This document shows, one piece after another, positions 3,123 to 35,708 of a stretch of DNA of 41,823 nt. Positions within the stretch are counted from its first letter, which is position 1. Each line of letters starts with the position of its first letter. Under the pieces are notes generated by a model that had not been told where the DNA came from, ran no database searches, and saw only the letters and a program-made list of their open reading frames with translations. The stretch is from Deltaproteobacteria bacterium (lineage in GTDB: Bacteria > Desulfobacterota > Desulfobacteria > Desulfobacterales > Desulfosarcinaceae), in contig JAKALP010000042.1 of NCBI GenBank assembly GCA_021824175.1, positions 1-41,823 on the forward strand, read 5' to 3'. Made by a program: the position numbers and the translations under genes.

Positions 3123-3190
3123 CCCTCCCAAAGGGGAGAGGGTTCGCCAGTACCAGCGCAACAAAGAGCCCTCTCCCCTACGACGGGCGA
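3123..3190. repeat. Inverted CCCTCTCCCC-type intergenic repeat between hoxF and hoxU-like gene
   Basis: A copy of GGGGAGAGGG (3134-3143) faces CCCTCTCCCC (3170-3179), so the intergenic RNA could fold into a GC-rich hairpin. The same word family occurs at 14814-14850 and 31771-31817. A short AATCAACG word (3224-3231) lies just downstream, before the ribosome-binding site of the next gene. CCCTCTCCCC-type repeats are widespread in bacterial intergenic DNA; function is unknown. Confidence 0.7.
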
Positions 3191-3249
3191 TGAAAGTGGA
3201 CTGGAAATAATCATCCGATCGACCAATCAACGAAAAACGGAGAGGTCCG

Positions 3250-5271
3250 ATGAAAGAAAACGCCAAGCAAATAAAGTTGACCATCGACGGCCGCGAGATC
3301 ACCGTGGAAGACTCATTGACCATTCTGGAAGCGGCGCGGCAAAACCGAATCGATATCCCCACCTTGTGCCACCATCCGGCCGTCTCCAACTGGGGCGGAT
3401 GTCGTCTATGCGTGGTGGAGGTGGACAAATCCCCCAAGCTGGTGGCGAGCTGCGTGATGCCGGTGCGCGCCGGTATGGAAGTAATCACCCAGAGCGACGC
3501 CATCACCGCCAGCCGCCGTCTGACTTTGGAATTGCTTTTCGCCGAGCGCAATCACAACTGCATGTTCTGCCCCCAGAGCGGCGATTGCGAACTGCAAAAG
3601 ATGGCCTACGCGCTGCAAATGGATCACCTGATGGTCTCCCCGTCCTTCAATGCTTATCCCACCGACACCACCGGGGAGTATATGACCCTGGATCACAACC
3701 GCTGTATCCTGTGCGGCCGCTGCGTGCGCGCCTGCCAGGAGATTGCGGGCAGCTATGTACTGGGATTCCACAACCGGGGCTCCAAGAGTCTGATCGGATT
3801 TGATCTGCTGGAAAAGCGGGAGAATTCTTCGTGCATCAATTGCGGCGCCTGTTTGCAGCTCTGTCCCACGGGCGCCATTTCCAACCGTTACCGCACCCAC
3901 TATGCGGTCAAGGGGCAGCCGGTGGAGAGTCAAACCATTACTTCCGTTTGCGCGGCCTGCGGGTTGTTGTGCCCGACCCAGAACAAAGTCCGCGACAATC
4001 AGGTGATCGCCATCGAGGGCCTGGTGGCCGCCAAACCCAACGGCCGTCCGGACCGGGGCCAGTTGTGCTACAAAGGACGCTTCGAGATGCTCAAAACCAA
4101 AGGGACCCGGATGCTCGCCCCCATGGTCAAAGACGATCAGGGCCATTGGCGGGAGCAGAACTGGGAGACGGCTCTGGACCGCATCACCAAAGCCTTGGGC
4201 GCGGCCAAATCCAATGGCGGGTCCGAGGCGCTCTTCGGTCTGGCCTCCAGCAGCGTGTGCAATGAAACGCTGATGATGTTCAAAGAATTGATGTCTGCTG
4301 GCTGGGGCGCGGGGCGGGTGGACACCATCGACGGCCAATATTTTCGCAACCTGGCGGCCTCCCAGGACAATGGGGCCCAAGGGCTGCCGGCCGAAACTTC
4401 ATGGAAGAAAATCGCGGCCGCGGATATGGTGCTGGTGGTGGGCGCCGATCCGCAGCAAAGCCATCCCATGCTGGTGTCGCTGCTGCGCCGGGCCATGATC
4501 GAAAGGGCCTTGCCGATTGCTTCCATTGGTCAAATGGAAAGCGCAACGCTGTTCAGCAATCACTATCTGGCCGTAGAAGACGGGGGGCTGGCCCCCGCGC
4601 TGGCGCTGCTGGCCGGCAAGATTGCTTCTCCGGCAAAAGAAGGAAAGGCAAAGTCTTCTCTTTCGGCGCAACAGCAAGCCGAAATTGACCGCATCGCCCG
4701 GGCCTTCATTTCCGCCAAGTCGCCGCTCATACTGGCCGGCCAGCATTTAACCGGGCCGGATAGCGCGGGGACGCTCCAGGATTTGTTCCGCATCGCCCGC
4801 TCCAAAGAGCCGCTCACCGGCAAAAGCGCCATGATCAGCTTTCTAAAGCCCGAAGGCAACAGCATGGCGGCCTGGCGCCTGGGCGTTGCGGCCCGCCTGG
4901 CCAAACCCGGCAAGGCTCAGGCCGGAGTACTGATCGTGGACGGCGATCCCGATGAAGTCAAAGCCGCCCTGGCGGGCCTGCGGCCGGCGCCCAAATTTCT
5001 GGCGGTGATCACGCCATACTTTAATTCGGTTCTGGCCGAAATGGCACAAGTCATGCTGCCCAGCCCGGTGTGGATGGAAGAAGATGGTTCCTATACCAGC
5101 ATGGATGGGGCTGAATCCGTGTTTAAACCTAAAGTGCTCGATGCGCCCAAGGGCGTGAAGAATACCTGGGAAATCCTCCAGGCCCTCGGCCAGCGCATCG
5201 ATGCGCCGGGAGTCGGCAAGCGCTGGGAAGATATTCGGGCCAAGGCGGCGCAGCTATTGGCGGTGAGTTGA
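3250..5271 (+). CDS. hoxU: HoxU/NuoG-like iron-sulfur subunit with truncated molybdopterin-type domain
   Basis: Electron-wire subunit predicted to link the flavin subunit to HoxY. It has a plant-type [2Fe-2S] domain (CHH..., GGCRLC near residues 40-55), a His-Cys 4Fe-4S motif (HNCMFC...GDC), two ferredoxin-type clusters (CILCGRCVRAC and CINCGACLQLC), then a fifth cluster of the molybdopterin oxidoreductase type (CAACGLLC ... C) and about 400 residues of molybdopterin-oxidoreductase fold. At 673 residues it is much longer than classical HoxU (about 240) and shorter than most NuoG; the C-terminal dinucleotide-binding domain seems absent. As in NuoG, the Mo domain is probably structural rather than catalytic (family knowledge plus inference). 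Start chosen from GGAGAGG a few bases upstream. The neighbour order F-U-Y-H supports a hydrogenase role rather than complex I; the symbol is by context. Confidence 0.82.
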   Translation: MKENAKQIKLTIDGREITVEDSLTILEAARQNRIDIPTLCHHPAVSNWGGCRLCVVEVDKSPKLVASCVMPVRAGMEVITQSDAITASRRLTLELLFAERNHNCMFCPQSGDCELQKMAYALQMDHLMVSPSFNAYPTDTTGEYMTLDHNRCILCGRCVRACQEIAGSYVLGFHNRGSKSLIGFDLLEKRENSSCINCGACLQLCPTGAISNRYRTHYAVKGQPVESQTITSVCAACGLLCPTQNKVRDNQVIAIEGLVAAKPNGRPDRGQLCYKGRFEMLKTKGTRMLAPMVKDDQGHWREQNWETALDRITKALGAAKSNGGSEALFGLASSSVCNETLMMFKELMSAGWGAGRVDTIDGQYFRNLAASQDNGAQGLPAETSWKKIAAADMVLVVGADPQQSHPMLVSLLRRAMIERALPIASIGQMESATLFSNHYLAVEDGGLAPALALLAGKIASPAKEGKAKSSLSAQQQAEIDRIARAFISAKSPLILAGQHLTGPDSAGTLQDLFRIARSKEPLTGKSAMISFLKPEGNSMAAWRLGVAARLAKPGKAQAGVLIVDGDPDEVKAALAGLRPAPKFLAVITPYFNSVLAEMAQVMLPSPVWMEEDGSYTSMDGAESVFKPKVLDAPKGVKNTWEILQALGQRIDAPGVGKRWEDIRAKAAQLLAVS

Positions 5272-5291
5272 TAAAGATAAGGGTTCAATCG

Positions 5292-5522
5292 TGCGCGTAC
5301 TTCCCCGGTCATGGGGATCGGGTTCAAGTACCGCCAAACTGAGTATGAGTACGCGTACGGTGAACCTTTCTTCTCCTGATTCGGAGCGGTCCCGCGCGGG
5401 AGTGTGAAAAGATGGGAAGTAAAGTTGTTCATTGGGAAGATCGCAGTAAATAAATCGTACTCGTACGCGTGCTCGAAGTCCGGGGGTCGAGTACGAGTAC
5501 GCGTACGAGTACGAGTACGAAA
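5292..5522. repeat. GTACGA word array and dyads between hoxU-like gene and hoxY
   Basis: This 293-base gap holds no convincing gene. GTACGA-type words occur at 5343-5359 and as a clear inverted pair, left arm 5455-5475 and right arm 5488-5520, which would form a hairpin of about 20 bp. A perfect 12-bp palindrome, TCCCGCGCGGGA, lies at 5390-5401, and GGTTCA (5320-5325) faces TGAACC (5361-5366). The array ends about 40 bases before the hoxY start. The same word family recurs at 10696, 21581, 24556, 26006 and 28720. A reading frame through the array (rows of Val-Arg) is an artefact of the 6-bp period. Confidence 0.85.
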
Positions 5523-5564
5523 GAATAAGAAGAGAATAAACCCTAATAAAACCCAGGGGGTAAT

Positions 5565-6107
5565 ATGGCCAAACCAAAAGTCGCCACGGTATGGTGTGAG
5601 GGGTGCGCGGGCTGCCACATGTCTTTTCTCGATCTGGACGAGGCCTTGCTCGATGTGCTCGCCAAAATCGAGCTGACCGTTACGCCGATCACCGATTTCA
5701 AGGATTATCACTTTCCCCACGTGGACCTGGGCATCATCGAGGGCGGCGTGGGCAACGAAGAACAATTGGAAATTGTGCGCCATATGCGCGAGCGGGCCAA
5801 GATCATCATGGCCTGGGGCGATTGCGCGGTCTTCGGCGGCATCAACACCCTGCGTAACAACATCCCGGTCAATGATCTGTTGCGCTACGGCTACACCGAG
5901 ACCGCCAGCACGGTCAATGGCGTGATCCCCGTGCATGCCGAACTGCCCAAGCTGACGGAAAAAGTAATGCCGGTCAACGCCGTCATCCCGGTGGATTGCT
6001 ACATCCCCGGATGTCCGCCGTCGCCCCAAGCCATTGCCTATGGGTTGACCGAAATTCTGCACGGAAGAATACCCGTGCTGCCGAGCGAACTGATCCACTT
6101 CGATTGA
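5565..6107 (+). CDS. hoxY: [NiFe] hydrogenase small subunit HoxY
   Basis: Small electron-transfer subunit of an NAD-linked (group 3d-like) [NiFe] hydrogenase, about 180 residues, without the twin-arginine signal of membrane uptake hydrogenases, so cytoplasmic. Proximal-cluster ligands are visible: CEGCAGCHMSF near residues 10-20, GDCAVFGG near the middle and IPGCPPSP near the C-terminus. It starts after a GGGGG stretch (5555-5559 region) and is followed 12 bases later by hoxH, its obligate partner. The F420-nonreducing MvhG family is related, but the partner genes (NuoF/NuoG-like) favour HoxY. Confidence 0.92.
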   Translation: MAKPKVATVWCEGCAGCHMSFLDLDEALLDVLAKIELTVTPITDFKDYHFPHVDLGIIEGGVGNEEQLEIVRHMRERAKIIMAWGDCAVFGGINTLRNNIPVNDLLRYGYTETASTVNGVIPVHAELPKLTEKVMPVNAVIPVDCYIPGCPPSPQAIAYGLTEILHGRIPVLPSELIHFD

Positions 6108-6119
6108 GGAGACGCCACT

Positions 6120-8068: not shown

Positions 8069-8071
8069 ACC

Positions 8072-8476: not shown

Positions 8477-8482
8477 ACGTTC

Positions 8483-8808
8483 ACCCGTTTGCCCGTTTGC
8501 CCGTTAGCCCGTTTCCATGCAGAGCGTGGGAGCAGGGCCAAACGGGCCAACGACGGACAGCTCTGCCAGCGGATCGTGAATAGAGGGGCCGACCCCAACC
8601 AATATCCGAGGGACGGAGCACCCACCGAAAAAAAGCTATGAGCGCCGTGGACCAACGGGCAAACGGGCTAACGGGCTCAACGGGCCACGGGCCAACGGGC
8701 ACACGGACCAACGGGCCAACGGGCCACGGGCAAACGGGCCAACCCCGCCAAAGAGCGGCGGGATCAAACATCTGATTAATTAAATTAAGGTGTTTGACGG
8801 GCAAACGG
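8483..8808. repeat. AACGGGC+N word array between response regulator and kinase
   Basis: This 336-base gap contains the constant heptamer AACGGGC followed by a variable base, repeated many times at 8651-8745, with short copies at 8536-8552 and 8797-8808. The reverse-complement word GCCCGTTT/GCCCGTTA is repeated at 8483-8515. The two orientations could pair across about 140 bases. The array starts 7 bases after the stop codon of the regulator gene and runs almost to the start of the kinase gene, which has no clear ribosome-binding site. No gene was recognised here. Confidence 0.88.
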
Positions 8809-8812
8809 AACA

Positions 8813-10663: not shown

Positions 10664-10690
10664 CGCCCAGAGGATTCTCTTTTTTTCTTT
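10655..10690 (+). terminator. Candidate intrinsic terminator after kinase gene
   Basis: GAATCC (10655-10660) pairs with GGATTC (10672-10677) across an 11-base loop, followed by TCTTTTTTTC. The stem is only 6 bp and includes the end of the coding sequence, so strength is uncertain, but the T-tract makes it the clearest terminator-like element in this half of the window. Confidence 0.55.
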
Positions 10691-10695
10691 CGTGT

Positions 10696-10762
10696 TCGTA
10701 CGCGTACGAGTACGATATAGGAGAGACTTCACGCTTCATGCAACGGCCGTGACTTACACTCC
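10696..10762. repeat. GTACGA array with conserved downstream flank (copy 1)
   Basis: GTACGCGTACGAGTACGA lies at 10698-10715. The 50 or so bases after it (10708-10762) resemble those after the array at 28791-28845: both have GAGTACGATA, GAGAC, GCTTCATGCAAC, GTGACT and ACAC in the same order and spacing. So the repeated unit extends beyond the simple word. No gene was recognised in the rest of the gap to 10898. Confidence 0.75.
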
Positions 10763-10898
10763 TCTGTACATCTCCTGGTTGACCCTTGCCGGGGAACCCA
10801 ATATAAACTTTTCAATTCATCATGGCTTCAGACTTTGGGACAATCTCGGGAAGGGAGAGTTCATCTGGCTGTGCTTGGACTATAGGGAGAGATTCGGA

Positions 10899-12323: not shown

Positions 12324-12330
12324 TAGGGTC

Positions 12331-12465
12331 TTGCGTTGCGCCGTTGCGCGAGATTAAAATTGAACGCCATGGGGCCCAGTCGTCCTTGTGCGCATCAACC
12401 TTTGAACCGGCGATTCGAAAGAACGACCATTCTATTTTTGGGTCTCACGCAACGGCGCAACGTAA
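12331..12465. repeat. Inverted GCGCAACG word pair after the carboxylesterase gene
   Basis: TTGCGTTGCGCCGTTGCGC begins 7 bases after the stop codon and faces CACGCAACGGCGCAACG at 12446-12462; the arms (about 20 bp) could form a long hairpin around about 90 bases. A related single copy is found at 35601-35622 near lexA. It lies where transcription of the esterase would need to end, so a termination or processing role is possible. Confidence 0.8.
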
Positions 12466-12503
12466 ATAACAAATCCACGGTTCCAAAGGTGGTAACATCC
12501 TTT

Positions 12504-12539
12504 AACGAATAAACCAATCAACCAATCAACGAATCAACT
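12504..12539. repeat. AATCAACG/AATCAACC word array upstream of htpG
   Basis: Four to five copies of an 8-bp word (AATCAAC plus G or C) in tandem. The same family occurs at 17823-17950, 30441-30545, 30912-30950 and as a fragment near 3224. It lies about 85 bases upstream of the htpG promoter. Confidence 0.85.
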
Positions 12540-12692: not shown

Positions 12693-14630
12693 ATGGAAGG
12701 CCAAAAACAAACTCACCAGTTCAAGACCGAAGTTCGTCAAATTCTCAATCTCATCATCAACTCCCTTTACTCCAACCAAGAGATCTTTTTGCGTGAGCTG
12801 ATCTCCAACGCCTCGGACGCCATTGACAAGCTGCGATTCAAATCCCAGACCGAACCAGGGCTGCTGGGGGATGATCCGGAGTTCAGCATCAAGATCAAGC
12901 CCGACGGCATTACCCAGACCCTGGAAATCAGCGACAACGGCATCGGCATGACCTTTGAGGAGGTCATGGAAAACATCGGCACCATCGCCAAAAGCGGCAC
13001 GGCCCAATTCCTGGAGATGATCAAACAGGCCCAGAGTGAGCAGTCGTTGACGCCGGAGTTGATCGGCCAATTCGGCGTGGGCTTTTACAGCGCCTTCATG
13101 GTGGCGGACAAAATCACCCTGATCACCCGGGCCGCCGGGGTCCCCAAGGAGCAATCGGTGCGCTGGGAATCCAGCGGCGACGGCTCCTATGACATCCAGT
13201 ACGCCGACAAAGAAAAACGCGGCACCACCATCACCCTGCACCTGAAGAAAAAAGAAAAGGATGAGCTCGATTTCACCGACCAGTGGCAAATCCGCCGCAT
13301 CATCAAGCAGCACTCCGACTTCGTGGCCTATCCAATCCGGATGGATGTGGAAAAAGAGATTCCCATCCCGGACCAGGAGCTCATCAAGGACAAAGACGGC
13401 AAGCCCATCGGCGAAACCAAGCGCCGGGTGGTGGAAGAAGAGACCATCAACACCATGACGGCCATCTGGGCCCAGCCCAAGGAAGAGATCGACGACAAGA
13501 CCTACGAAGAGTTCTACAAGCATCTCTCCCATGACTGGAACCCGCCCCTGGCCAGGCTGCACATGAAGCTGGAAGGCACCACGGAGTACGATATGCTGCT
13601 CTACATTCCTTCCAAGGCGCCCTTTGATATGTTCCAGCCCGAGCGCAAACACGGCGTGCATCTCTACTGCAAGCGGGTCTTTATCATGGATGACTGCAAG
13701 GAGCTGGTGCCCGAATATCTGCGTTTCGTCAAAGGGGTGGTGGACGCGCCCGATCTCAATCTCAATGTCAGCCGCGAGATATTGCAGCAGGACCGGCTGG
13801 TGATGAACATCCGCAATAACCTGGTCAAAAAGGTCCTTGATCTGCTCACCGACCTGAAGCCCGAAGAGTATGAGAAGTTCTACGCCGAGTTCGGCCCGGT
13901 GATTAAAGAAGGTATTTACACCGACCACAACAAGCGCGAGAAGATCGCTTCGCTGGCGCGCTACAAAACCACCAAGTCCGGCGACAAATGGGTCTCGCTG
14001 GATGAGTACGTGAAGAACATGCAGCCGGATCAGAAGGAGATTTACTACATCACCGGCGACGACCTCAACGCCCTGATCAACAGCCCGCTGCTGGAGAAGT
14101 TGAAGGACAAATCCTACGAAGTACTGCTGATGGCCGATCCGGTGGATGAGTGGGCCATGCAGTCGCTGCACGAATACGGCGGCAAGCCGTTAAAAAGCGC
14201 TGAAAAGGGCGAGCTCGAACCGGATAAGAAAGATGATGCCAAGCGCGAAGAGTTCAAAGCCCTGTTCGGCTTCATCAAGGGCCAGCTCGAAGCCAAGGTC
14301 AAGGAAGTCAAAGCCTCGGACCGCCTCAAGGAATCGGTGGCCTGCCTTTCCGGCGCCGATTACGACATGAGCGCCTACATGGAGAAGATCCTCAAGGCCG
14401 CCGGCCAGAAGCCGCCTGAAGTCAAGCGGGTGCTGGAATTGAACATGGACCATCCAGTGATGGCCAAGATCCGCGCGCTCTACGAAAAAGATCGCCAGAA
14501 TACGGCCCTTAAAGACTACAGTCTGCTATTGTACGATTTGGCGGTGGTGGCCGAAGGCGGCAAACTGGAGAACCCGGCCCGCTTTTCGAAGCTGGTGGGC
14601 GAGATGATGAATCAGGCGATTGGCGCGTAG
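12693..14630 (+). CDS. htpG: Molecular chaperone HtpG (Hsp90 family)
   Basis: ATP-dependent cytosolic chaperone of about 645 residues, the usual bacterial length. The N-terminal GHKL ATPase contains ELISNASDAIDKLR, the nucleotide-binding DNGIGMT and the lid/glycine motif GQFGVGFYSAFMVAD; the middle-domain VDAPDLNLNVSREILQ is a strong Hsp90 signature. The start at 12693 gives the conserved N-terminus (MEGQKQTHQFKTEV) and follows AAAGGAG at 12674-12680; an in-frame ATG 39 bases earlier lacks such support. The stop codon is followed immediately by the GGCACTGA word array. It is a housekeeping gene unrelated to the neighbouring hydrogenase or nif functions. Confidence 0.95.
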   Translation: MEGQKQTHQFKTEVRQILNLIINSLYSNQEIFLRELISNASDAIDKLRFKSQTEPGLLGDDPEFSIKIKPDGITQTLEISDNGIGMTFEEVMENIGTIAKSGTAQFLEMIKQAQSEQSLTPELIGQFGVGFYSAFMVADKITLITRAAGVPKEQSVRWESSGDGSYDIQYADKEKRGTTITLHLKKKEKDELDFTDQWQIRRIIKQHSDFVAYPIRMDVEKEIPIPDQELIKDKDGKPIGETKRRVVEEETINTMTAIWAQPKEEIDDKTYEEFYKHLSHDWNPPLARLHMKLEGTTEYDMLLYIPSKAPFDMFQPERKHGVHLYCKRVFIMDDCKELVPEYLRFVKGVVDAPDLNLNVSREILQQDRLVMNIRNNLVKKVLDLLTDLKPEEYEKFYAEFGPVIKEGIYTDHNKREKIASLARYKTTKSGDKWVSLDEYVKNMQPDQKEIYYITGDDLNALINSPLLEKLKDKSYEVLLMADPVDEWAMQSLHEYGGKPLKSAEKGELEPDKKDDAKREEFKALFGFIKGQLEAKVKEVKASDRLKESVACLSGADYDMSAYMEKILKAAGQKPPEVKRVLELNMDHPVMAKIRALYEKDRQNTALKDYSLLLYDLAVVAEGGKLENPARFSKLVGEMMNQAIGA

Positions 14631-14757
14631 GGACTGAGGAACTGAGGCACAAAGGCACTGAGGCACTGAGGCACAAAGGCACTGAGGCACTGAGGCACAA
14701 AGGCACTAAGGGACAAAGGGACTGAGGGATTGAGGGATTGAGGGGCAAGGGGACTTA
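14631..14757. repeat. GGCACTGA/GGCACAAA tandem word array after htpG
   Basis: A run of 8-bp words alternating GGCACTGA and GGCACAAA, drifting into GGGACAAA and GGGATTGA. It begins at the base after the htpG stop codon. The reverse-complement version of the same family lies at 35643-35708, where it forms the end of the integrase gene. No coding potential of its own is credible. Confidence 0.9.
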
Positions 14758-14813
14758 GGGAAGCAGAATATGTCAGTATACCGTTTATGCTTTCGGCATC
14801 ACGAGCAAGTGCT

Positions 14814-14904
14814 CCCTCTCCCCCTTGGGGAGAGGGTCGGGGTGAGGGGAATAGTGGCGGCCCTCCTTTTCCCTTCAGCCTTCAGTCTTCAGCCTTCAGT
14901 CTTC
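14814..14904. repeat. CCCTCTCCCC hairpin followed by TTCAGCC/TTCAGTC array
   Basis: CCCTCTCCCCC TTGGGGAGAGGG (14814-14835) is a near-perfect hairpin followed by GGTGAGGGG. It is followed at 14873-14904 by a 7-bp word (TTCAGCC/TTCAGTC) repeated four times, ending about 20 bases before the next start codon. Two different word families thus sit side by side between htpG and the acyltransferase gene. Confidence 0.8.
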
Positions 14905-14924
14905 TCACGAGGGCGGCCACGGCC

Positions 14925-15836
14925 ATGAAAGAGAAGTTGATCGATCGTTTCCTCTATCGGGCCGTTGTCGCCCTTTTTTCTTTTCTGGGGCGGCTGCCGA
15001 GATCCATGCGAGACCGTTTGGCCAGCAGCCTGGGCGGACTGATATTTAAACTGGATCGCAAGCATCGCCGCATCGCCATCCAGAATCTGAACCTGGCCTT
15101 TGGAGAAGAAAAAACACCGGCTGAGATTTTCCGAATTGCCCGCCAGGTGTTTGAAAACCTGATCCGGGTGGTGTTTGAGGTGGGCTGGTCCCTCAGCCTG
15201 CCGTGGGATCAATTCTCCAAGTACATACGGGTGATTGGGCTGGAAGAGTATCGCCAGGCCCTGGCTAAGGGCAGGGGAGTACTTTTTCTGTTGGCCCACT
15301 TCGGCAACTGGGAACTGCTGCCTATTATCGGTTTGCTGGGCCAGATCCCCGTGCGCACGGTCTATCGCAAGCTGGACGCCCCCTTTCTGGAACGCTTCTT
15401 CAAGGAAAACCGTTGCCGCTACGGCGGCCAGGTCATCGCCACCCACCGGGGCGCGGCGCGCGATATCTACCGCGAGCTGCGCAAAGGATTTCCGGTGGCC
15501 ATGCTCATGGATCAGAACGTGGATTGGTATGACGGCGTGTTCGTGGATTTCTTCGGCCAGCGCGCCTGCACCAACAAAGGTATGGCCCTGCTGGCGATCA
15601 AAAGCCAGGCCCCGGTGGTCCCAGTTTTTCTCATCCGTCGTCCGGACGGATTTGACGCCGTCTTCGGCCCTGAGCTGCCCGTGATTCAAACCGGCGACCG
15701 CACCAAGGACATCGAAGAAAACTCCCAGCTCTATAACCTCGTCATCGAAACGTACGCCCGCCGTTATCCAGAGCAGTGGTTCTGGGTGCACCAGCGCTGG
15801 AAAACCAAGCCGTATCAGCCTTGGCCGCGAGCGTAA
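14925..15836 (+). CDS. LpxL/HtrB-family lipid A acyltransferase
   Basis: Predicted inner-membrane-associated late acyltransferase of lipid A synthesis, 303 residues. The catalytic H(x4)E motif is seen in AHFGNWELLP near residue 123, with the later MDQN segment and the C-terminal WFWVHQRWKT signature typical of the LpxL/LpxM family. The start at 14925 gives the expected N-terminus (MKEKLIDRFLYRAV, a hydrophobic anchor); the frame is open upstream but only through repeat DNA. No strong Shine-Dalgarno is visible. Whether it adds lauroyl, myristoyl or another chain cannot be told. The stop codon is the start of the next repeat hairpin. It implies a Gram-negative envelope with lipid A. Confidence 0.88.
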   Translation: MKEKLIDRFLYRAVVALFSFLGRLPRSMRDRLASSLGGLIFKLDRKHRRIAIQNLNLAFGEEKTPAEIFRIARQVFENLIRVVFEVGWSLSLPWDQFSKYIRVIGLEEYRQALAKGRGVLFLLAHFGNWELLPIIGLLGQIPVRTVYRKLDAPFLERFFKENRCRYGGQVIATHRGAARDIYRELRKGFPVAMLMDQNVDWYDGVFVDFFGQRACTNKGMALLAIKSQAPVVPVFLIRRPDGFDAVFGPELPVIQTGDRTKDIEENSQLYNLVIETYARRYPEQWFWVHQRWKTKPYQPWPRA

Positions 15837-15980
15837 AATGAATATCGAATATCGAACAAGGATTATCGAATTATAAAGTTTTCTTTTGACTTTGGTAATG
15901 AATCCGTCGTTCTTCAAATTTAAACGGTCTAAGCTCCTTCGACATTTTGCTGTTCCTTGTTCGCTATTCGATATTCATTT
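15836..15980. repeat. TATCGAA inverted repeat pair between acyltransferase and nifA
   Basis: Left arm AAAATGAATATCGAATATCG... (15835-15861) and right arm ending in ...CGATATTCATTTT (15953-15980) are complementary over about 27 bases with one mismatch, enclosing about 90 bases. The arm is a 7-bp word (AATATCG) repeated. The left arm starts in the stop codon of the acyltransferase gene, so it could act as a terminator-like hairpin or insulate nifA. Confidence 0.85.
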
Positions 15981-19804: not shown

Positions 19805-19812
19805 AGTAGTTT

Positions 19813-19863
19813 TAAGTGTAAAGTTTAAAGTCTTAAGCAAAGGTATTCTACCGATTTCAAATA
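19813..19863. repeat. AAGTTTA word array between nifI2 and nifD (one arm)
   Basis: A 7-bp word (AAGTGTA, AAGTTTA, AAGTCTT) repeated in tandem, followed by GCAAAGG and ATTCTACCGATT. About 43 of 51 positions match the segment at 23040-23090 between nifK and nifE, so the same element was copied into two gaps of one operon. Here no opposite arm is present. It ends at the AAGGAG ribosome-binding site of nifD. Confidence 0.82.
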
Positions 19864-21580: not shown

Positions 21581-21607
21581 TCGAGTACGAGTACGCGTAC
21601 GAGTACG
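21581..21607. repeat. GTACGA array between nifD and nifK
   Basis: TCGAGTACGAGTACGCGTAC and one more copy form a single-orientation array, about 35 bases before the nifK start. The centre TACGCGTA is self-complementary, so a short hairpin or cruciform is possible. Confidence 0.85.
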
Positions 21608-23023: not shown

Positions 23024-23036
23024 AGATAGAAGAAAT

Positions 23037-23161
23037 TTTTAAGTGTAAAGCTTAAAGTGTAAAGCAAAGGAATTCTACCGATTAAGAATAGCACCTTGGT
23101 TATATTGTGGTTAATGATAGAATTCCTTAACTTTAAACTTTCATACTTTAAACTTTAAACG
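23037..23161. repeat. Long AAGTTTA-type inverted repeat between nifK and nifE
   Basis: Left arm 23037-23077 (7-bp words AAGTGTA, AAGCTTA ... then AAAGGAATTCTA) and right arm 23117-23161 (TAGAATTCCTTAAC then CTTTAAACTTT words) are complementary over about 35-40 bases with interruptions. It lies 14 bases after nifK. An RNA hairpin here could protect the nifHDK message or reduce read-through into nifEN, giving the high HDK to EN ratio nitrogen fixers need (inference). Confidence 0.85.
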
Positions 23162-24555: not shown

Positions 24556-24570
24556 TCGTACGAGTACGAG
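24556..24570. repeat. Short GTACGA array at the nifE-nifN junction
   Basis: TCGTACGAGTACGAG is followed directly by AAGAAAGGCGG, the ribosome-binding site of nifN. The same arrangement, array then AAAGGCGG then ATG, is found before nifB. Confidence 0.75.
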
Positions 24571-25995: not shown

Positions 25996-26005
25996 ACTTT
26001 CACAA

Positions 26006-26062
26006 TCGTACTCGTACGCGTACGCGTACGCGGACACGAAAATTTTCCGAGTACGAGTACGA
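26006..26062. repeat. Inverted GTACGA arrays between nifN and nifB
   Basis: Left arm TCGTACTCGTACGCGTACGC... (26006-26031) and right arm CGAGTACGAGTACGA (26048-26062), separated by CGGACACGAAAATTTTC. The right arm leads straight into AAAGAGAAAGGCGG, the nifB ribosome-binding site. Folding could hide or present that site. Confidence 0.88.
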
Positions 26063-27353: not shown

Positions 27354-27490
27354 AAGAAGTTTTAAGTTGGAAGTTTTAAGTTTTTAGTGAAGGCATGGCT
27401 GCCATTTGATTGGGTGCTTGCCAAGCAATGCCGAAAATATAATCGATAGCATCCCTTCACTTTCATACTTTTAACTTTACACTTTAAACT
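27354..27490. repeat. Long AAGTTTTA-type inverted repeat between nifB and the ferredoxin gene
   Basis: Left arm 27357-27397 (AAGTTTTAAGTTGGAAGTTT... then AGTGAAGGCATG) faces right arm 27447-27490 (CATCCCTTCACTTTC then ACTTTTAACTTTACACTTT). It begins right after the nifB stop and is built like the nifK-nifE element but with its own core (GTGAAGG/CCTTCAC). Confidence 0.85.
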
Positions 27491-27567
27491 TACCCGCGAA
27501 GTAGAGGTAAAAGTACAGAGTATTGCAGTCTGATTTATCACTAAAACTTATAAAGGAGCATAAAATA

Positions 27568-27873: not shown

Positions 27874-27910
27874 ATATCGAACCCTTCCCAGTTGGAAGGC
27901 GGAGGTCGCC

Positions 27911-28321
27911 ATGGAAGAATTGGGTGTGGGAAGCTGGCCGGAATACATTGCGCAAGGCCGGCAGTATTTTAAGGCCGCCCGGGGCGGTCGCAAGCGTCCG
28001 GAGGTGTTTACCAACGAACTGGTCAGTCACCTCATCGGCCTGTCGGTGGAGAAATTGCTGATGGGCTTGTGTCTGCGTCATGGTCGCCTGCCCGCGGACC
28101 ACACCCTGGGCGGCATTGTGTCCGAAGTACAAAGTCTCTGCCCCATGGAACGGATGCTGGCCGAAGAGATTGCTCTGATGGACCGTGCCCAGGATTTGTG
28201 TGCGCTTGATCCACGGCTGCCTTTGGCAATGAGCGACCAGCGGGTGGCGCACATGCTGGAGACCAATGCGCGCGTGGCCGAGTATGTCGAAGAAAAATTG
28301 CAGCCCAGGAGGAGTCCATGA
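27911..28321 (+). CDS. HEPN-like helical protein in the nif operon
   Basis: A 136-residue, mostly helical protein. The stretch SHLIGLSVEKLLMGLCLRHGRLPADHTLGGIVSEV resembles the core of HEPN-domain proteins, and RLPADH fits the RX4-6H motif of HEPN nucleases (this is the only catalytic hint). No nucleotidyltransferase partner (MNT) is adjacent. GGCGGAGG lies just before the ATG. It overlaps the next gene (nifX-like) as ATGA, so it is a real, coupled operon member. Role unknown: assembly helper, RNA-binding protein or something else. Confidence 0.75.
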   Translation: MEELGVGSWPEYIAQGRQYFKAARGGRKRPEVFTNELVSHLIGLSVEKLLMGLCLRHGRLPADHTLGGIVSEVQSLCPMERMLAEEIALMDRAQDLCALDPRLPLAMSDQRVAHMLETNARVAEYVEEKLQPRRSP

Positions 28322-28656
28322 AACCCATAAAAATAGCCGTTGCCACCACGGATGGCCGGAGCGTCAATGAGCATTTTGGCAAATCAGAACGCTTCTCGAT
28401 TTACATGGTCGGAGAGCAAGTGACCCATCTGGAAGATCGCGTTTGCGAAAAGCTCTCCACCGGCGACCCGGAGCACACCTTCGATTCGGCTCAATTCGAA
28501 AAGATCGTCGGCACGCTGAAAGATTGCCAGAAGATTTATGTGACCGAGATCGGCAAGGTCCCCGAAGCCGCGCTCAAGGCCCAGGGGCTGGAAGTCATCC
28601 GCTGCAGCTGCCCCATCCAGCAGATCGCCACTTGCTGCGGCCGTTGTGCCCATTGA
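28318..28656 (+). CDS. nifX: NifX-like FeMo-co-binding protein
   Basis: Small protein (112 residues) of the NifX/NafY/dinitrogenase-cofactor family: KIAVATTDGRSVNEHFGKSERF is the typical N-terminal signature, and the ribonuclease H-like fold fits the length. The tail CSCPIQQIATCCGRCAH is rich in cysteine (five in 17 residues), unlike most NifX proteins, and could bind an Fe-S cluster or metal. Translationally coupled (ATGA) to the upstream HEPN-like gene. It probably carries NifB-co or FeMo-co during assembly; the symbol is by family, so moderate certainty. Confidence 0.8.
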   Translation: MKPIKIAVATTDGRSVNEHFGKSERFSIYMVGEQVTHLEDRVCEKLSTGDPEHTFDSAQFEKIVGTLKDCQKIYVTEIGKVPEAALKAQGLEVIRCSCPIQQIATCCGRCAH

Positions 28657-28719
28657 CAGGCCAAGAGCGCATCTAAGTGTGTGAGTCAGGAGTATTGCAC
28701 GATATCTGCTTTGGCGAGG

Positions 28720-28845
28720 TCGTACTCGTACTCGTACGCGTACTCGAAAAATTTTTTAAATCGTTCGAGTACGCGTACGAGCACGAGTACGAGTACGATA
28801 AGGCGGAGACCTTATGCTTCATGCAACAGTTGTGACTCACACGCC
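28720..28845. repeat. Large inverted GTACGA array with conserved flank (copy 2)
   Basis: Left arm 28720-28748 and right arm 28764-28799 are reverse complements over about 28 bases, the right arm carrying one extra 6-base unit; an AT-rich loop (AAAAATTTTTTAAATCG) lies between. The 50 bases after the right arm (to 28845) repeat the flank seen at 10708-10762, including GCTTCATGCAAC and GTGACT. This is the best-preserved element of the family. An ATG at 28814 behind AAGGCGGAG opens a short frame (LHATVVTHTP...) that is not credible as a gene but is conserved in the other copy. Confidence 0.88.
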
Positions 28846-28884
28846 GCATCTAAATACCGTTGTGTATCGTTGGAGGAGTAAACC

Positions 28885-29370
28885 ATGCCCGCAACCATCC
28901 GCAATGCCCAGCCGGAAGATATCGGCGCCATGGTCGCGCTGTTGAAGCAACTGTTTGCCATCGAGACCGACTTCAAGATCGACGCCGAACGCCACCGCCG
29001 CGGCCTGGCCCTGATGATCGACGGCTGCGGCAAGCACCGCTGCGTCATGGCGGCCGAGGCCGACGGCAGTGTGGTGGGCATGGGCACGGCCCAATTGCTG
29101 ATCTCCACGGCCGAAGGCGGCCCGGTGGCCCTGGTGGAGGATATCGTTGTCGAATCCCAGTGGCGCGGCAAGGGCATCGGCCGCCAGTTGCTTGATGCCC
29201 TGGAAGCCTGGGCCTGGTCCCATGGGGCCACCCGCCTGCAGCTGCTGGCCGACCGCACCAACTTTTCGGCTTTGGATTTCTACGACCATATCGGCTGGCG
29301 CCCCACGCGCATGGTTTGCCTGCGCCGGAAGCAAATAGCGGGCAGTAAATCAAACGGGAGAAAAGGCTGA
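28885..29370 (+). CDS. GNAT-family N-acetyltransferase in the nif operon
   Basis: A 161-residue acetyltransferase of the Gcn5 fold. The acetyl-CoA pyrophosphate motif is WRGKGIGRQLLDAL, preceded by the LVEDIVVES strand; NFSALDFYDHIGWRPT is the typical C-terminal segment. GGAGGAG is 7-13 bases upstream of the ATG. It lies 5 bases before nifV and in the same direction, so it is probably co-expressed with nitrogen fixation genes. Its substrate is unknown. Confidence 0.88.
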   Translation: MPATIRNAQPEDIGAMVALLKQLFAIETDFKIDAERHRRGLALMIDGCGKHRCVMAAEADGSVVGMGTAQLLISTAEGGPVALVEDIVVESQWRGKGIGRQLLDALEAWAWSHGATRLQLLADRTNFSALDFYDHIGWRPTRMVCLRRKQIAGSKSNGRKG

Positions 29371-29375
29371 GACGC

Positions 29376-30458
29376 ATGGAGCCATCCGCACCCAAAAGAA
29401 GCATTCAGCTCAACGACACCACCCTGCGCGACGGTGCCCAGGCGCCGGGAGTCATTTTCAAGAGGGCCGACAAACTGGTCATCGCCCGTGCCCTGGATCT
29501 GTTGGGCATTGATGAGCTGGAAGCCGGCACGCCGGCCATGGGCGCGGCCGAAGAAGAAGATATTGCCCGCATCGCCGCTCTGGGACTGAGGTGCCGCGTC
29601 GTGGCCTGGTGCCGGGCCAGGTCCGAAGATCTGGCGGCCGCGGCACGCTGCGGCGTGGATGGCGTTCACATCAGCCTGCCTGTCTCCGATATCCAACTGC
29701 GCGCCCTGGGCAAGGATCGGGCCTGGGTCCTGGCCCAATTGCAGGTATTGCTTCCCAGAGCCATGCATGCTTTTGCCTTTGTCAGCGTGGGGGCCCAGGA
29801 TGCCACCCGGGCCGATGGCCAATGGCTTCAGGATTTTCTCCACGCCGTGGAGCGCCTGGGGGCCCGCCGATTGCGTCTGGCCGATACGGTCGGCATCGGC
29901 CGGCCGGAAACCGTGGCCGCCATGATCGTCCGCTGCCGCCGGGCCGCGCCGCATCTGGCGCTGGAATTCCACGGCCACAATGACTTGGGACTGGCCACGG
30001 CCAATGCCCTGGCCGCGGTCGAAGCCGGCGCTTCGGCCCTGAGCGCAACCGTGAATGGCCTTGGCGAACGGGCCGGCAACGTAGCCCTGGAACAAGCGGC
30101 TGTACTTCTCCATCAGCATCCCCAGCTGGGCTGCGGGATCGATCTGTCCCAACTGTTCGCGGTCTGCCGCCGCACGGCCCAGGCCAGCGGCCGGCCTATC
30201 GCCCCGGACCGGCCCATCGTGGGCGACTTGTGCTTCACCCATGAATCGGGCATTCATTGCCACGCGTTGCTCGTGGACAGCCGCAGCTACGAACCGTTTC
30301 CGCCCCAAAGCATCGGCCGCTGCCACCGCTTCGCCATGGGCAGCCACTCGGGCGGCGCCGGCCTGCGCCATCTGCTCCATGAGGCTGGTATCGATGCATC
30401 CCCGCCGCAGTTAAGGGCGTTGCGGGCTTTGCTGGCGGGGGATTCGTTGAGTCGTTGA
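29376..30458 (+). CDS. nifV: Homocitrate synthase NifV
   Basis: Condenses acetyl-CoA and 2-oxoglutarate to homocitrate, the organic ligand of FeMo-co. DRE-TIM metallolyase features: NDTTLRDGAQAPG at residues 13-25, the metal-binding EFHGHNDLGLATANAL, and GLGERAGNVALEQ. About 360 residues, normal for NifV. The next genes are not leucine-pathway genes, which favours NifV over 2-isopropylmalate synthase. The last five codons (Asp-Ser-Leu-Ser-Arg) and the TGA are formed by the GATTCGTT word array that continues downstream. Confidence 0.93.
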   Translation: MEPSAPKRSIQLNDTTLRDGAQAPGVIFKRADKLVIARALDLLGIDELEAGTPAMGAAEEEDIARIAALGLRCRVVAWCRARSEDLAAAARCGVDGVHISLPVSDIQLRALGKDRAWVLAQLQVLLPRAMHAFAFVSVGAQDATRADGQWLQDFLHAVERLGARRLRLADTVGIGRPETVAAMIVRCRRAAPHLALEFHGHNDLGLATANALAAVEAGASALSATVNGLGERAGNVALEQAAVLLHQHPQLGCGIDLSQLFAVCRRTAQASGRPIAPDRPIVGDLCFTHESGIHCHALLVDSRSYEPFPPQSIGRCHRFAMGSHSGGAGLRHLLHEAGIDASPPQLRALRALLAGDSLSR

Positions 30459-30545
30459 TTCGTTATTCGTTGATTCGTTGATTCGTTGAGTCGTTGATTC
30501 GTTATTCGTTATTCGTTGATTCGTTGATTCGTTGAGTCGTTAATT
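30441..30545. repeat. GATTCGTT word array overlapping the end of nifV
   Basis: More than ten copies of an 7/8-bp word (GATTCGTT, GAGTCGTT, ATTCGTT). The first two copies encode the C-terminus and stop codon of nifV. The opposite orientation lies at 30912-30950, at the stop codon of the convergent gene. It is the longest array of this family in the window. Confidence 0.9.
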
Positions 30546-30625
30546 GGTGAGAAGGATTTTGATCTTTTCGAAATTGATTTGGAGGGTGATGAAGTCGTAG
30601 AAAGTAAAATCGCAAAAGTAGTATG

Positions 30626-30769
30626 GAAGCCATTTCAAAAGCTTCCATTGGGCTTAAGGACGCGACGGACCGAAAGGTTCAACCGCGGGAGTATATCTAT
30701 TATTTTGAGGATCGAACCTTTCGGTCCAACAAAGGATTTGAGCCCGAGGGAAGGTTTTGAAATGGCTTC
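30626..30769. repeat. Large imperfect hairpin element in the nifV-downstream gap
   Basis: Arms of about 55 bases (30626-30680 and 30714-30769) with a 33-base loop. The outer 15 bases (GAAGCCATTTCAAAA) and inner 14 bases (GGACCGAAAGGTTC) pair perfectly, with GGGCT/AGCCC in the middle. It is not built of tandem words, unlike its neighbours. It may be a structured RNA, a bidirectional terminator or a mobile-element remnant. A reading frame of 73 codons across it is not credible. Confidence 0.75.
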
Positions 30770-30844
30770 TAGTGATTGTTATGCCCAACGACATAAATAG
30801 TTGCGCACATTTACTTTTCAATTCGGTGCTGAATGAGCATTTTT

Positions 30845-30900
30845 ACCAAGAACACAGAGGACGCAGAGAATTTCTCTGTGCTCTCTATGTTCTCTGTGGT
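30845..30900. repeat. AACACAGAGG hairpin
   Basis: ACCAAGAACACAGAGGACGC... (30845-30870) and its inverse (30872-30900, ending TTCTCTGTGGT) pair with almost no loop. The 9-bp word is ACACAGAGG/ACGCAGAGA. The same family is found between the next convergent gene pair at 34843-34889. Confidence 0.8.
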
Positions 30901-30911
30901 GATCAGCTTTC

Positions 30912-30950
30912 AACGGATCAACGAATCAACCAATCAACCAATCAACGATC
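30912..30950. repeat. AATCAACG word array at the stop codon of the acyltransferase gene
   Basis: AATCAACC/AATCAACG words in the orientation opposite to 30441-30545. The array overlaps the TGA of the minus-strand gene by two bases. Together the two arrays enclose the whole gap between convergent genes, and the arms could pair over about 35 bases. Confidence 0.88.
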
Positions 30951-31605
30951 ACCACTCCCGTAATACTTCCTCCGCCCGGCGCTGGGCCTCGTGCAGCGCT
31001 GCTTCCACCGCGCGGCAGCCGCGCGCCAGAGCAGCTTCGTCCTTTTCCGTCCCAAAGGTCAGTGGACGACCGAAGAATAACACCTGGCGGCTGAAGGGCA
31101 GAGGCAGGAAGGATTTGGTCCAGGAACGCTCAAAGGTGTATTTGCGGCTGGCCGCCACGCCAACGGGCAGTAATGGCACATCGCATTTCCGGGTCAGGCG
31201 CACGATGCCCGGCTTGCACACGTGGCGCGGCCCCTGGGGCCCGTCCACGGCAAAGGCCCCCATATAACCCTCCCGGGAAGCCTTGATCATGGCCATCAGG
31301 CCGCCCGCGCCGCCCCGGCTGGAAGAGCCGCGCACCACATGGTACCCCAGATGGCGCGCGGCCTGGGCCAGCATCTCCCCATCCTGGGAAAGGCTGATCA
31401 ACAAGGCGGCGTGGACTTTGCCGAACCAGGGCAGCAACGCCAGATCGTCCCCATGCCAGTGGGCGAAATTGACCCGGCCACCGAGTTGCTGGACCTGGTC
31501 AAACCCCACGATGCGCGTTTTGACCAGCCGGGAAAGCAGCCACAGCAGCCGCGCGGCCGTCAGCGGCAGATGCTTGCGCAGATGATACTTTAGCTTTGGG
31601 TGCAT
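30949..31605 (-). CDS. DUF374 lysophospholipid acyltransferase-like protein
   Basis: Predicted membrane-associated acyltransferase of the DUF374 group, about 218 residues. Features: a basic N-terminus with a hydrophobic segment, FAHWHGDDLALLPWF (His-x4-Asp-like motif), ISLSQDGEMLAQAARHLGY, RGSSSRGGAGGL and AVDGPQGPRHVCKPGI, all typical of DUF374. The start MHPKLKYHLRK at 31605 is preferred over an in-frame ATG 60 bases upstream because GAGG lies just before it. It is convergent with nifV, so not part of the nif operon; substrates are unknown, probably lipid A or phospholipid related. Confidence 0.82.
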   Translation of the reverse strand: MHPKLKYHLRKHLPLTAARLLWLLSRLVKTRIVGFDQVQQLGGRVNFAHWHGDDLALLPWFGKVHAALLISLSQDGEMLAQAARHLGYHVVRGSSSRGGAGGLMAMIKASREGYMGAFAVDGPQGPRHVCKPGIVRLTRKCDVPLLPVGVAASRKYTFERSWTKSFLPLPFSRQVLFFGRPLTFGTEKDEAALARGCRAVEAALHEAQRRAEEVLREW

Positions 31606-32057
31606 GGACCTGTACCTCGTGTGGTAATTCACTGCTTCTGACCCCAGGGACCATAGTGCGAACATGGGAATTATTCAATATCTTTGAGACCTTCATCCGT
31701 TGATGGAAATCGGCCGGGTATAAGTTAGGGATGGAGAAAAATCCGATGTGCCGTTTCCGCGATGGGGCAGGCCCCTCACCCCGACCCTCTCCCCGCTGAA
31801 GATCGCGGGGAGAGGGAGCTCCGAACGCCCAGCGTATGGAAGCCAAAATTCTTGCTTTTGCCAGGGCCATTCGGTTCGCCGCCCCCCTGCCCGGTTATGG
31901 TTTGACAAAGCAACCAGTCCCTTATAAATTCTGTTCGCCGACTTCGGAAGATAATGTACACGCCATTTAAAGACCTTTTGCGATGGCGTGTAGCCTTTCG
32001 CAGCATCTAAAACTACTTTCTGACTGAAAGATCATCTGTTTTTTAACTCGGATTCCC
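31606..32057. other. Divergent intergenic region with two hairpins
   Basis: No gene recognised between the minus-strand acyltransferase and the plus-strand kinase. A CCCTCTCCCC...GGGGAGAGGG hairpin with GGTGAGGGG-type flank lies at 31771-31817. A 10-bp-arm dyad, TACACGCCAT (31957-31966) facing ATGGCGTGTA (31983-31992), lies about 65-100 bases before the kinase start and could be an operator. The promoters of both genes must be here, but no convincing -35/-10 pair was picked out. Confidence 0.6.
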
Positions 32058-34661: not shown

Positions 34662-34938
34662 CGTCGAGACTACCGGCGCACGGAGCCCGTAAAATCTCAT
34701 CACAGGAAACGCACAGAGAACGGAGATAAATATTTCAGGACCCTGGATATTTCTTTCGTCATGCCCGTCCCGCATAAATACGGGATAAACTGCGGCGGGC
34801 ATCCAGCCTGATGGCCTCTTAATTACGATGACATATTGCTTCACCACAAAGAACACAGAGAAAAATTTTACCCTCTGTGCCCTTGTGGTTATGAATATAC
34901 TGACCAGCAATACGTTACCGAATTTATGCCACAGAACG
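34662..34938. repeat. Hairpin repeats between convergent kinase and lexA genes
   Basis: Three elements: a CACAGAG fragment at 34700-34722; a GTCATGCCCG ... CGGGCATCCAG hairpin (34757-34808) of the widespread bacterial CGTCATTCCCGC-type family, with an inner TCCCG/CGGGA stem; and an AACACAGAG hairpin with arms ACCACAAAGAACACAGAG (34843-34860) and CTCTGTGCCCTTGTGGT (34873-34889). No gene was recognised. Location between convergent genes suggests a termination role. Confidence 0.75.
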
Positions 34939-35562
34939 CTAAGTCCGGCGCACCACCCCCACCAGCTTTCCGATGATCTTCACCCCCTTGCGGGCCTGAC
35001 CCCGGATGGTCAAGGGCTTATAGCCCCGGTTGGCCGGCTTGAGCGTGATGGCGGTCTCGCTCTTTTGAAAGATCTTCAGGGTAGCCTCGGGTAGAATATC
35101 TTCCACCATCACGGCCGCGATCTCGCCATTGGCCACCCGCGCCTGGCGGCGGATAATGGCCAGATCCCCATTCTTGATATGGGCCTCGATCATGGAATCG
35201 CCTTTTACTTTCAACGCAAAGCACTGCTCGCAACCAAAGACCGACGGCGAAATGCCCAGCTCTTCTTCCACATGCTGAACCGCCTCGATGGGGTCCCCGG
35301 CCGCGATGGCCCCCACCACGGCAATACCCCCCACCATGGGCACCGCGCTGGTGGTGCGCCAGGAGCGCTTCTTGAGCGCGTCGGCATGCAGATAGCCTCG
35401 GTCTTTGAGCACATTCAGCATGCGGTGAATACTGCCCGGCGAAGTCAGCTTGAAATGCTTGGCGATCTCGCGCACCGTGGGCGAAATTGCGTAACGCTTC
35501 TGATACTCGATAATGTACGCCAGTATCTGCTGCTGCCGTTCGGTCAAATCATTAAAGTCCAT
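34939..35562 (-). CDS. lexA: LexA repressor
   Basis: SOS-response repressor and self-cleaving protease, 207 residues. The N-terminal winged helix (LTERQQQILAYI, ISPTVREIAKHFKLTSPGSIHRML) precedes the cleavage region AIAAGDPIEA (Ala-Gly bond near residues 88-90), the catalytic Ser in KGDSMIEAHI and the catalytic Lys probably in EATLKIF. AAAGGAG lies just before the ATG. It is downstream of and in the same direction as the integron integrase gene (123-base gap), so co-transcription is possible. LexA is known to repress integron integrases in several bacteria; here the adjacency is direct. Confidence 0.93.
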   Translation of the reverse strand: MDFNDLTERQQQILAYIIEYQKRYAISPTVREIAKHFKLTSPGSIHRMLNVLKDRGYLHADALKKRSWRTTSAVPMVGGIAVVGAIAAGDPIEAVQHVEEELGISPSVFGCEQCFALKVKGDSMIEAHIKNGDLAIIRRQARVANGEIAAVMVEDILPEATLKIFQKSETAITLKPANRGYKPLTIRGQARKGVKIIGKLVGVVRRT

Positions 35563-35600
35563 ATATTACTCCTTTCGGATTGAATCTCTTAACGCATATT

Positions 35601-35708
35601 CTCACGCCACGGCGCAACGTAGAAAAGCAAATCGCCACATCTCCCTCAGCCCCTTTGTGCCTGCGTGCCTTTGTCCCTCAGTCCCTTAGTCCCTCTGCCC
35701 CTCAGTCG
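35601..35708. repeat. GCGCAACG word and CCCTTTGTGCC/CCCTCAG word array between intI and lexA
   Basis: CACGCCACGGCGCAACGTAG (35603-35622) matches the right arm at 12446-12465. At 35643-35708 there is an array of 8-bp words (CCTCAGTC, CCTTAGTC, CCTTTGTG) that is the reverse complement of the family after htpG. It includes the last seven codons and the stop codon of the minus-strand integrase gene. Confidence 0.85.

Follow-up and report, generated by a model that had tools for sequence, protein, structure and literature searches.

What are the tandem arrays of short words that stand in the gaps between genes on this contig, and by what route did they come to be there? The contig (C9, 41,823 b) was analysed in its entirety and is called the window here. 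It belongs to a genome of 6.07 Mb in 61 contigs (G000) and carries NiFe-hydrogenase/Complex-I-like genes, hsp90, a sigma-54 activator, a nif cluster and an integron integrase; the best match of its NifH is that of Desulfosarcina widdelii (92% identity), which marks the lineage as Desulfosarcinaceae-like and not cyanobacterial. The arrays form arms in which a word with a constant core and a freer linker is repeated in tandem 2 to about 14 times, often with an inverted partner nearby. We read them, at a probability of roughly 0.45, as about a dozen lineage-specific families of small fold-back (inverted-repeat) elements. Such elements would arrive as arm-loop-arm units and would spread either as non-autonomous elements or through being copied between loci. 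A factor may read the core and tolerate the linker, selection would purge copies from genes, and copies in co-directional gaps might act weakly as inter-cistron RNA hairpins in decay or pausing.

Genes were masked with a simple gene finder trained on G000 (score cut-off 12), which gave 28 genes and 27 boundaries in the window, and arrays were located with Tandem Repeats Finder and a purpose-built array finder. Both located the tandem copies of named short words at gene boundaries that had been described from the sequence alone (the original prediction). The family words are F1 AATCAACS, F2 GTACGM, F3 AACGGGCN, F4 AAGTKTA, F5 AGGSRCWR, F6 TTCAGYC, F7 GCGCAACG, F8 TATCGAA, F9 ACACAGAGG-like, F10 CGATWC, F11 TCTTCATGY and F12 CACGGATNN. 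Two sets of G000 sequence were used, one of 441,823 b (the window and 400 kb picked blind) and one of 834 kb, to which stretches picked for richness had been added; the latter is called the sample below.

In the window a family was found in 15 of the 16 gaps of at least 100 bp (12/16 once F5 and F6, the two loosest families, were excluded) and in 18 of the 21 gaps of at least 20 bp. The corresponding figures for the 834-kb sample, about half of which was picked for richness, were 117/367 (99 without F5 and F6) and 129/510 (107), and the 400 kb picked blind had a family in 29 of its 162 gaps of at least 100 bp (24/162 without F5 and F6). Arrays at nearly every gene boundary are thus a property of the window and not of the genome at large, and the window is exceptionally array-dense even within G000. 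The 441,823-b set contained 40 arrays, 38 in gaps and two in genes, and the comparison with shuffled sequence that had been called for gave no array in five dinucleotide shuffles of the same set. In the 834-kb sample 114 of 118 arrays lay in gaps and four in genes, and within the window the arrays beginning at 14629 and 30441 overlap gene ends (Table 1). The arrays are therefore largely, nearly strictly, intergenic and above chance. It had been said that words equally common inside genes, or arrays unique to the window, would speak against the proposal; the arrays concentrate in gaps and occur beyond the window, and the word "strictly" has to be given up for the four genic cases.

Whole-genome counts were 222 for F1, 236 for F2 and 170 for F12, each with no match to the word read backwards. 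For F3 the count was 183 against 30 backwards, a poor control because CGGGC reads identically in both directions. The weaker families were compared with the reversed sequence of the 834-kb sample, in which F6 (4 vs 7 matches) and F9 (1 vs 1) were not above control, the loose F5 word (57 vs 27) was not clearly above it, and F7 (5 vs 1) was a weak family. No ACACAGAGG doublets were present in the sample; as a single word the shorter GCACAGAG was gap-rich (19 in gaps, 4 in genes), and the single-word density of TTCAGYC and GCGCAACG was almost equal in genes (ratios 1.1 and 1.6). F10, F11 and F12 are further families from elsewhere in the genome that were absent from the earlier list.

Word counts in relatives, which had been proposed as a check, showed that four families are far commoner in G000 than in its congeners. 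F1 gave 13 matches in 2 of 10 same-genus genomes, F2 66 matches in 6/10, F3 11 matches in 3/10, and F12 none in any of the six congeners searched; this fits one permissive history for the four. With one threshold for de novo arrays, 118 were found in 834 kb of G000 (part of it picked rich) and none in 837 kb of G006, the closest congener by NifH (96%). The blind 400 kb of G000 contained 24 arrays (contigs C55, 11; C22, 12; C8, 1), and 400 kb of D. widdelii contained two, one of them in a gap.

If the arrays had been inserted, gaps that carry them should exceed the orthologous gaps by about the length of the element. Among 37 conserved neighbouring gene pairs of G000 and G006, the 15 gaps with arrays had a median length of 157 bp in G000 and 85 bp in G006 (Wilcoxon, p = 0.0034), and the 22 without arrays medians of 31.5 and 36 bp (p = 0.89). 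Subtraction of the element reduced the median excess from 64.5 to 15 bp (p = 0.0024 and p = 0.73, respectively) in 12 gaps, three of the 15 having been dropped because the G006 gap itself contained an array; seven of the 12 held at least two array matches and five a single arm. Individual gaps measured 157 vs -4, 593 vs 5, 73 vs 4 and 56 vs -4 bp in G000 and G006. The expected excess was thus seen statistically, in 12-15 gaps.

Inverted pairs, defined as neighbouring arrays of one family on opposite strands less than 400 bp apart, bear out the predicted inverted partners and add a fixed polarity to them. A single polarity was found in 18/18 pairs of F1, 22/23 of F2, 7/7 of F3, 10/10 of F4 and 9/9 of F12, and also in the small families F8 (3/3), F10 (3/3) and F11 (2/2); it was mixed in F5 (4 vs 6) and F7 (1 vs 1). 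Single arms without a partner were also present. The arms of F1 point outward, at a median of ~15 bp from the flanking genes, with reverse arrays nearer the left gene in 22/26 cases and forward arrays nearer the right gene in 22/27. Loops are nearly constant in F10 (8 nt) and F12 (9-12 nt), measure 19 nt in 10 of 22 F2 pairs (range 9-37), and vary from 14 to 361 nt in F1, F3, F4 and F8. All nine F12 pairs have the loop frame GTC..TTT-TACC in common and largely the same unit order, and many F2 copies are likewise alike in loop letters and unit order, and therefore these look like copied elements. The F2 copies at 28650-28880 and 10698-10760 are, by eye, alike beyond the arm (GCTTCATGCAAC...GTGAC), which makes some of F2, at least, part of a bigger dispersed element. 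Nesting was also found, with F2 sequence between F1 arms at C14:78282-78566. Separately, the T-rich loop lay on the contig plus strand in 9/9 F12 pairs of the sample, regardless of gene direction, which may be chance or a strand bias.

The variation between units bears on what the arrays might be read by. Among 100 F1 units the eighth base was G in 50, C in 38, A in 7 and T in 5, and adjacent units had equal linkers in 44/83 cases (0.50 expected; 21/61 in a stricter count, 0.40 expected). Adjacent F12 units agreed in 1/26 cases (0.19 expected) and adjacent F3 units, in slight excess, in 23/51 (0.376 expected). In F1 (17.9 vs 18.4), F2 (19.0 vs 20.3), F4 (13.9 vs 14.7) and F10 (13.0 vs 18.3) the two arms of a pair resembled each other no more than arms taken from different loci did; in F3 (23.9 vs 21.2), F12 (23.1 vs 19.8) and, to a small degree, F8 and F11 the resemblance was greater within pairs. 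Pairs folded better than 20 shuffles of each (family median z -4.1 to -13.0), as inverted arms must. Native arms folded no better than chimeras in F1, F2, F4, F8 and F10; they folded better in F12 (-40.3 vs -35.4), F3 (-63.7 vs -56.3) and, slightly, F11. Arm likeness and chimera folding in F1, F2 and F4 therefore argue against arm copying and against fine-tuned RNA pairing, and speak for a core that would be read by some factor, with the linker tolerated. Arm-to-arm copying by quasi-palindrome correction was accordingly rejected for F1, F2, F4 and F10, and the arm likeness in F3 and F12 is compatible with it.

The same data lend something to the idea that global regulators or nucleoid proteins bind the arrays, as has been proposed for the paired sites of Geobacter metallireducens (PMC2700814); each unit would then be one site, and the inverted pair would set up a loop or a boundary of nucleoprotein. 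In its favour are the constancy of the core beside a freer linker, which is independent between F1 neighbours, arms that are no more alike within pairs in F1, F2, F4 and F10, and family-specific gap classes (below). We nevertheless regard this as somewhat unlikely, since about a dozen binders would be required in one lineage, the arrays have the look of DNA that was added and not of sites that arose within gaps already present, the arms of a pair are the more alike in F3 and F12 (a little so in F8 and F11), and F12 is absent from six congeners and present in other phyla.

Microsatellite growth through slippage during replication, in which the word itself is not recognised, could account for the block duplications in the window (a 24-bp unit at 14629 and a 46-bp unit at 30444) and for the small excess of agreement between F3 neighbours. 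It is highly improbable as the origin of the families: neighbouring linkers in F1 and F12 are no more alike than expected, which, despite the block duplications, makes slippage one unit at a time a poor candidate for the main source; single words are found 170-236 times genome-wide; pairs have a fixed polarity; and slippage does not produce inverted partners.

Placement with respect to gene orientation differed between groups of families, which were defined after inspection of the data, with the blind 400 kb serving as a separate view. In gaps of at least 100 bp of the 834-kb sample, F1/F4/F8/F12 occurred in 42/246 co-directional, 3/47 convergent and 3/74 divergent gaps, and F2/F10 in 14/246, 5/47 and 19/74. 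On gap bases the former avoid divergent gaps (binomial p = 0.0006) and the latter favour them (p = 0.0013). In the blind 400 kb the counts were 12/116, 0/16 and 0/30 for F1/F4/F8/F12 and 1/116, 1/16 and 5/30 for F2/F10. All 12 F4 occurrences were in co-directional gaps, and F3/F5 showed no clear orientation preference (p = 0.056). The two placement groups are therefore not interchangeable. A single process had been suggested behind all families, and the common design behind that suggestion (a core that stays constant, a linker that varies more, a frequent inverted partner and a place in gaps) was recovered. A single system is not supported, given the compact, near-constant loops of F10 and F12 (and fairly constant ones of F2) beside the loops of 14-361 nt in F1, F3, F4 and F8, and the different placement classes.

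In the nif cluster nifH, nifD and nifK were assigned by Pfam and position, and nifE, nifN, nifB and nifV by family models, with nifN and nifV slightly below cut-offs. In the nifK-nifE gap, read partly by eye, AAGTTTA-like inverted pairs were found in G000, G006 and G002, an inverted pair of other words in D. widdelii, and none in G009. The nifN-nifB gap holds F2 in G000 and an AGGTTTTA array in G006, and in G002, G003 and G009 it measures 19-24 bp and has no array. One family thus replaces another at nifN-nifB and, by eye, at nifK-nifE, as the comparison of orthologous gaps had been meant to reveal. Selected inter-cistron hairpins that act in termination or pausing, or that give parts of an mRNA different stabilities, in nif and other operons would agree with the recurrent nifK-nifE pairs, with the strong folding relative to shuffles, with native arms that outfold chimeras in F12 and F3, and with the confinement of F4 to co-directional gaps. 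This explanation is unlikely for the arrays as a whole, given that native arms are no better than chimeras in five families, that no array was flagged in the comparable nif gaps of G009 and G004, and that F2 and F10 favour divergent gaps. There were no Rfam matches at gathering score in the window, and no known structured RNA was recognised there. Three further genomes of the genus, G001, G005 and G007 (the last 73% complete), gave no true nifH match (best E 2.4e-5, 7.7e-7 and 1.0e-4), and the nif cluster may therefore be patchy in the genus.

REPIN/REP sequences and GTAG/CGTC palindromes are small palindromic repeats of high copy number, and an element of the REPIN/RAYT kind flanks its Y1_Tnp transposase gene; to our knowledge their arms are not built of word arrays. 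Movement by RAYT transposases draws some support from the distribution of Y1_Tnp matches, with seven in G000, four in G001 (the congener with most F2) and none in G006 (whose sample had no array above threshold). The array-poor D. widdelii has five such matches, and around 5/7 of the G000 and 4/4 of the G001 matches no doublet of ten family words was found, the GTAG/CGTC tag not being included in the search (flanks of ~1.5 kb, several cut by contig ends; for contig C10 the longer stretch L126 was used; the finder does detect the arrays of the window). We therefore consider REPIN-type elements a very improbable explanation. Reverse transcriptase was uninformative, with one partial RVT_1 in G000 and one in the array-poor G006. 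Loss of the hairpin nuclease SbcD was considered as a permissive cause, G000 having a weak match only (6.4e-4, below cut-off); such loss cannot suffice because G006 has no SbcD match either.

Beyond the genus, the families differ in their distribution. F1 was found in 3 of 246 genomes drawn evenly from the phylum (1-2 matches each), F2 in 0/20 and 0/41 genomes, and F8 once in one of 41, and these three are nearly restricted to this genus among the genomes searched. Doublets of CACGGATNN occurred in 9 of 48 genomes including G000, with 17 in a Verrucomicrobiia metagenome-assembled genome (MAG), 12 in a Phycisphaerales MAG and four in a Paludibacter MAG; five of the nine had one each, possibly by chance. 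Four Verrucomicrobiia loci were read, and at one of them, L220, both arms have the unit CCACGGATTACACGGATGGCACGGAT, identical to that of 4/9 downstream arms in G000; the Phycisphaerales copies read had different linkers. All five adjacent F12 pairs of the Verrucomicrobiia and Phycisphaerales MAGs had the polarity opposite to that of G000 (head-out vs head-in). F1 words were also found in seven viral contigs and F2 words in six, none of which had a blastn match to the G000 sample; one of them (L214, G+C 72%) carries an F2 pair with the polarity of G000. The viral contigs L207 (4331) and L210 (2872) have in common a long array of GGTTAATT/GGTTGATT words, which come close to the F1 word, at a G+C of 0.40-0.41.

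It is conceivable, if doubtful, that an undiscovered process builds inverted arrays word by word, out of short cores with free linkers and independently on each side of a gap. This would be spreading DNA of a sort in which the word is copied and not the element. G000 would then run about a dozen words at once, and F12 would cross phyla with its pair turned inside out.

The reading as families of fold-back elements has to be set against several observations that count against it. No transposase or recombinase could be tied to any family. Loops of at least 20 nt had no relative elsewhere in the sample in 13/18 F1 and 6/6 F3 cases, as if there were no master copy; over the longer loops of F1, F3, F4, F8 and F11 together, 25/39 lacked a relative and 14/39 had a secondary match, and at least one of the F1 exceptions contains nested F2 sequence. 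The orthologue test is small, its residuals after subtraction scatter (e.g. 364 vs 168 and 307 vs 405 bp), and G006 is distant (median identity 72% over 63 reciprocal best hits). Finally, the nif gaps of G006 are not empty and hold weak, sub-threshold arrays of the AGGTTTTA type.

The elements of the window are listed in Table 1.

Table 1. Word arrays and inverted pairs located in the window.
Positions	Strand	Element	Remarks
3123..3178	.	CCCTCTCCCC-type inverted repeat	By reading; word 14 times in gaps, 3 in genes of sample
5455..5520	.	F2 (GTACGM) inverted pair, loop 12	
8478..8743	.	F3 (AACGGGCN) inverted pair	
10698..10715	+	F2 single arm	Downstream sequence resembles, by eye, that after the 28720-28798 copy
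12334..12462	.	F7 (GCGCAACG) short inverted pair	Few copies in sample
12504..12538	+	F1 (AATCAACS) single arm	
14629..14743	+	F5 (AGGSRCWR) array, 24-bp higher-order repeat	Begins in hsp90 stop codon
14872..14904	+	F6 (TTCAGYC) array	Within longest open reading frame 14787-15836, upstream of predicted start 14925; family not above control
15840..15976	.	F8 (TATCGAA) inverted pair	GAATATCGAATATCGAA 14 times in genome
17823..17950	.	F1 inverted pair upstream of nifH	Adjoins stretch conserved, by eye, in several congeners
19808..19836	+	F4 (AAGTKTA) arm upstream of nifD	
21582..21607	+	F2 arm, nifD-nifK gap	
23033..23160	.	F4 inverted pair, nifK-nifE gap	
24558..24569	+	F2 two-unit remnant, nifE-nifN gap	
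26006..26062	.	F2 inverted pair, nifN-nifB gap	
27357..27491	.	F4 inverted pair downstream of nifB	
28720..28798	.	F2 inverted pair within longer dispersed sequence	
30441..30948	.	F1 inverted pair, arms 30441-30545 and 30910-30948	First arm overlaps nifV end
31785..31816	.	CCCTCTCCCC hairpin	
35642..35707	-	F5 array	

Two other regions of the window were noted. In the nif cluster, at window positions 27911-29370 and ahead of nifV, lie an open reading frame of 136 aa that no NCBIfam model matches and a gene for a GNAT-like acetyltransferase (its matches fall below cut-off). Positions 35686-41823 form an integron, whose minus strand encodes an intI-type integrase (TIGR02249, 474.7 bits against a cut-off of 265); plus-strand open reading frames, mostly without a Pfam match, follow it. 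An attC-like inverted pair with GTTAGCGC lies at 39681-39754, and the single tandem array listed in this region is a weak 7-bp one at 40438.

The original prediction recognised no described system with these properties, and in this it was wrong. In Geobacter metallireducens, classes 1-3 of "predicted global regulator binding sites" are described as 3-5 tandem octa- or heptanucleotides with variable positions, paired on opposite strands at variable spacing, with several families per genome and 48, 47 and 16 aligned sequences; some lie between genes (proB-proA) at places where the sequence of the sister species differs, and the regulator was proposed only (PMC2700814). Tandem words with variable positions (here of 6-9 bp) and opposite-strand pairing are both found in G000, where spacing is variable in F1, F3, F4 and F8, near-constant in F10 and F12, and mixed in F2 as given above. 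The Geobacter words are different and far fewer in copies, and in G000 the measurements extend to the added DNA, the classes of gap and the independence of linkers.

The cyanobacterial short tandemly repeated repetitive (STRR) sequences are also short tandem words, and a hairpin of them between hupS and hupL was suggested to act in stability or coupling (PMC2670836). Short tandem words at many, mostly intergenic loci are likewise found here; STRR units are usually of 7 bp and occur in filamentous cyanobacteria (PMC2670836), whereas the present ones are of 6-9 bp in a Desulfobacterota-like genome, and identity with STRR was rejected since by its NifH match to D. widdelii the organism is not a cyanobacterium. 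TAACTGA repeats, a single word amplified between genes, are described from marine Beggiatoaceae, cyanobacteria and Bacteroidetes (PMC4679880). They resemble the present case in that a single word spans distant phyla and differ in being one word, placed mostly just upstream of starts. The GGGAATC/GGGGA(C/T)T heptamers of Xanthomonas and Nostoc have variable positions, are 89-93% intergenic in Xanthomonas and, in two species of that genus, mostly occupy the same intergenic positions; by the same source they are G-rich and quadruplex-forming, with one word type per genome, which sets them apart (PMC4692102). For the word families themselves, no report from Desulfosarcinaceae was found in the open-licence PMC literature.

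The kind of array is therefore already described and unexplained, and G000 is a rich further case of it. Short-word intergenic arrays have so far been reported piecemeal, with no agreed origin or function. F12 shows that a word can be common to distant phyla while six congeners lack it. With about a dozen families, several of them high-copy, beside array-poor congeners, G000 makes both origin and function directly testable, through the gain, loss and polarity of arrays, the rules that linkers follow and the effects on operons such as nif.

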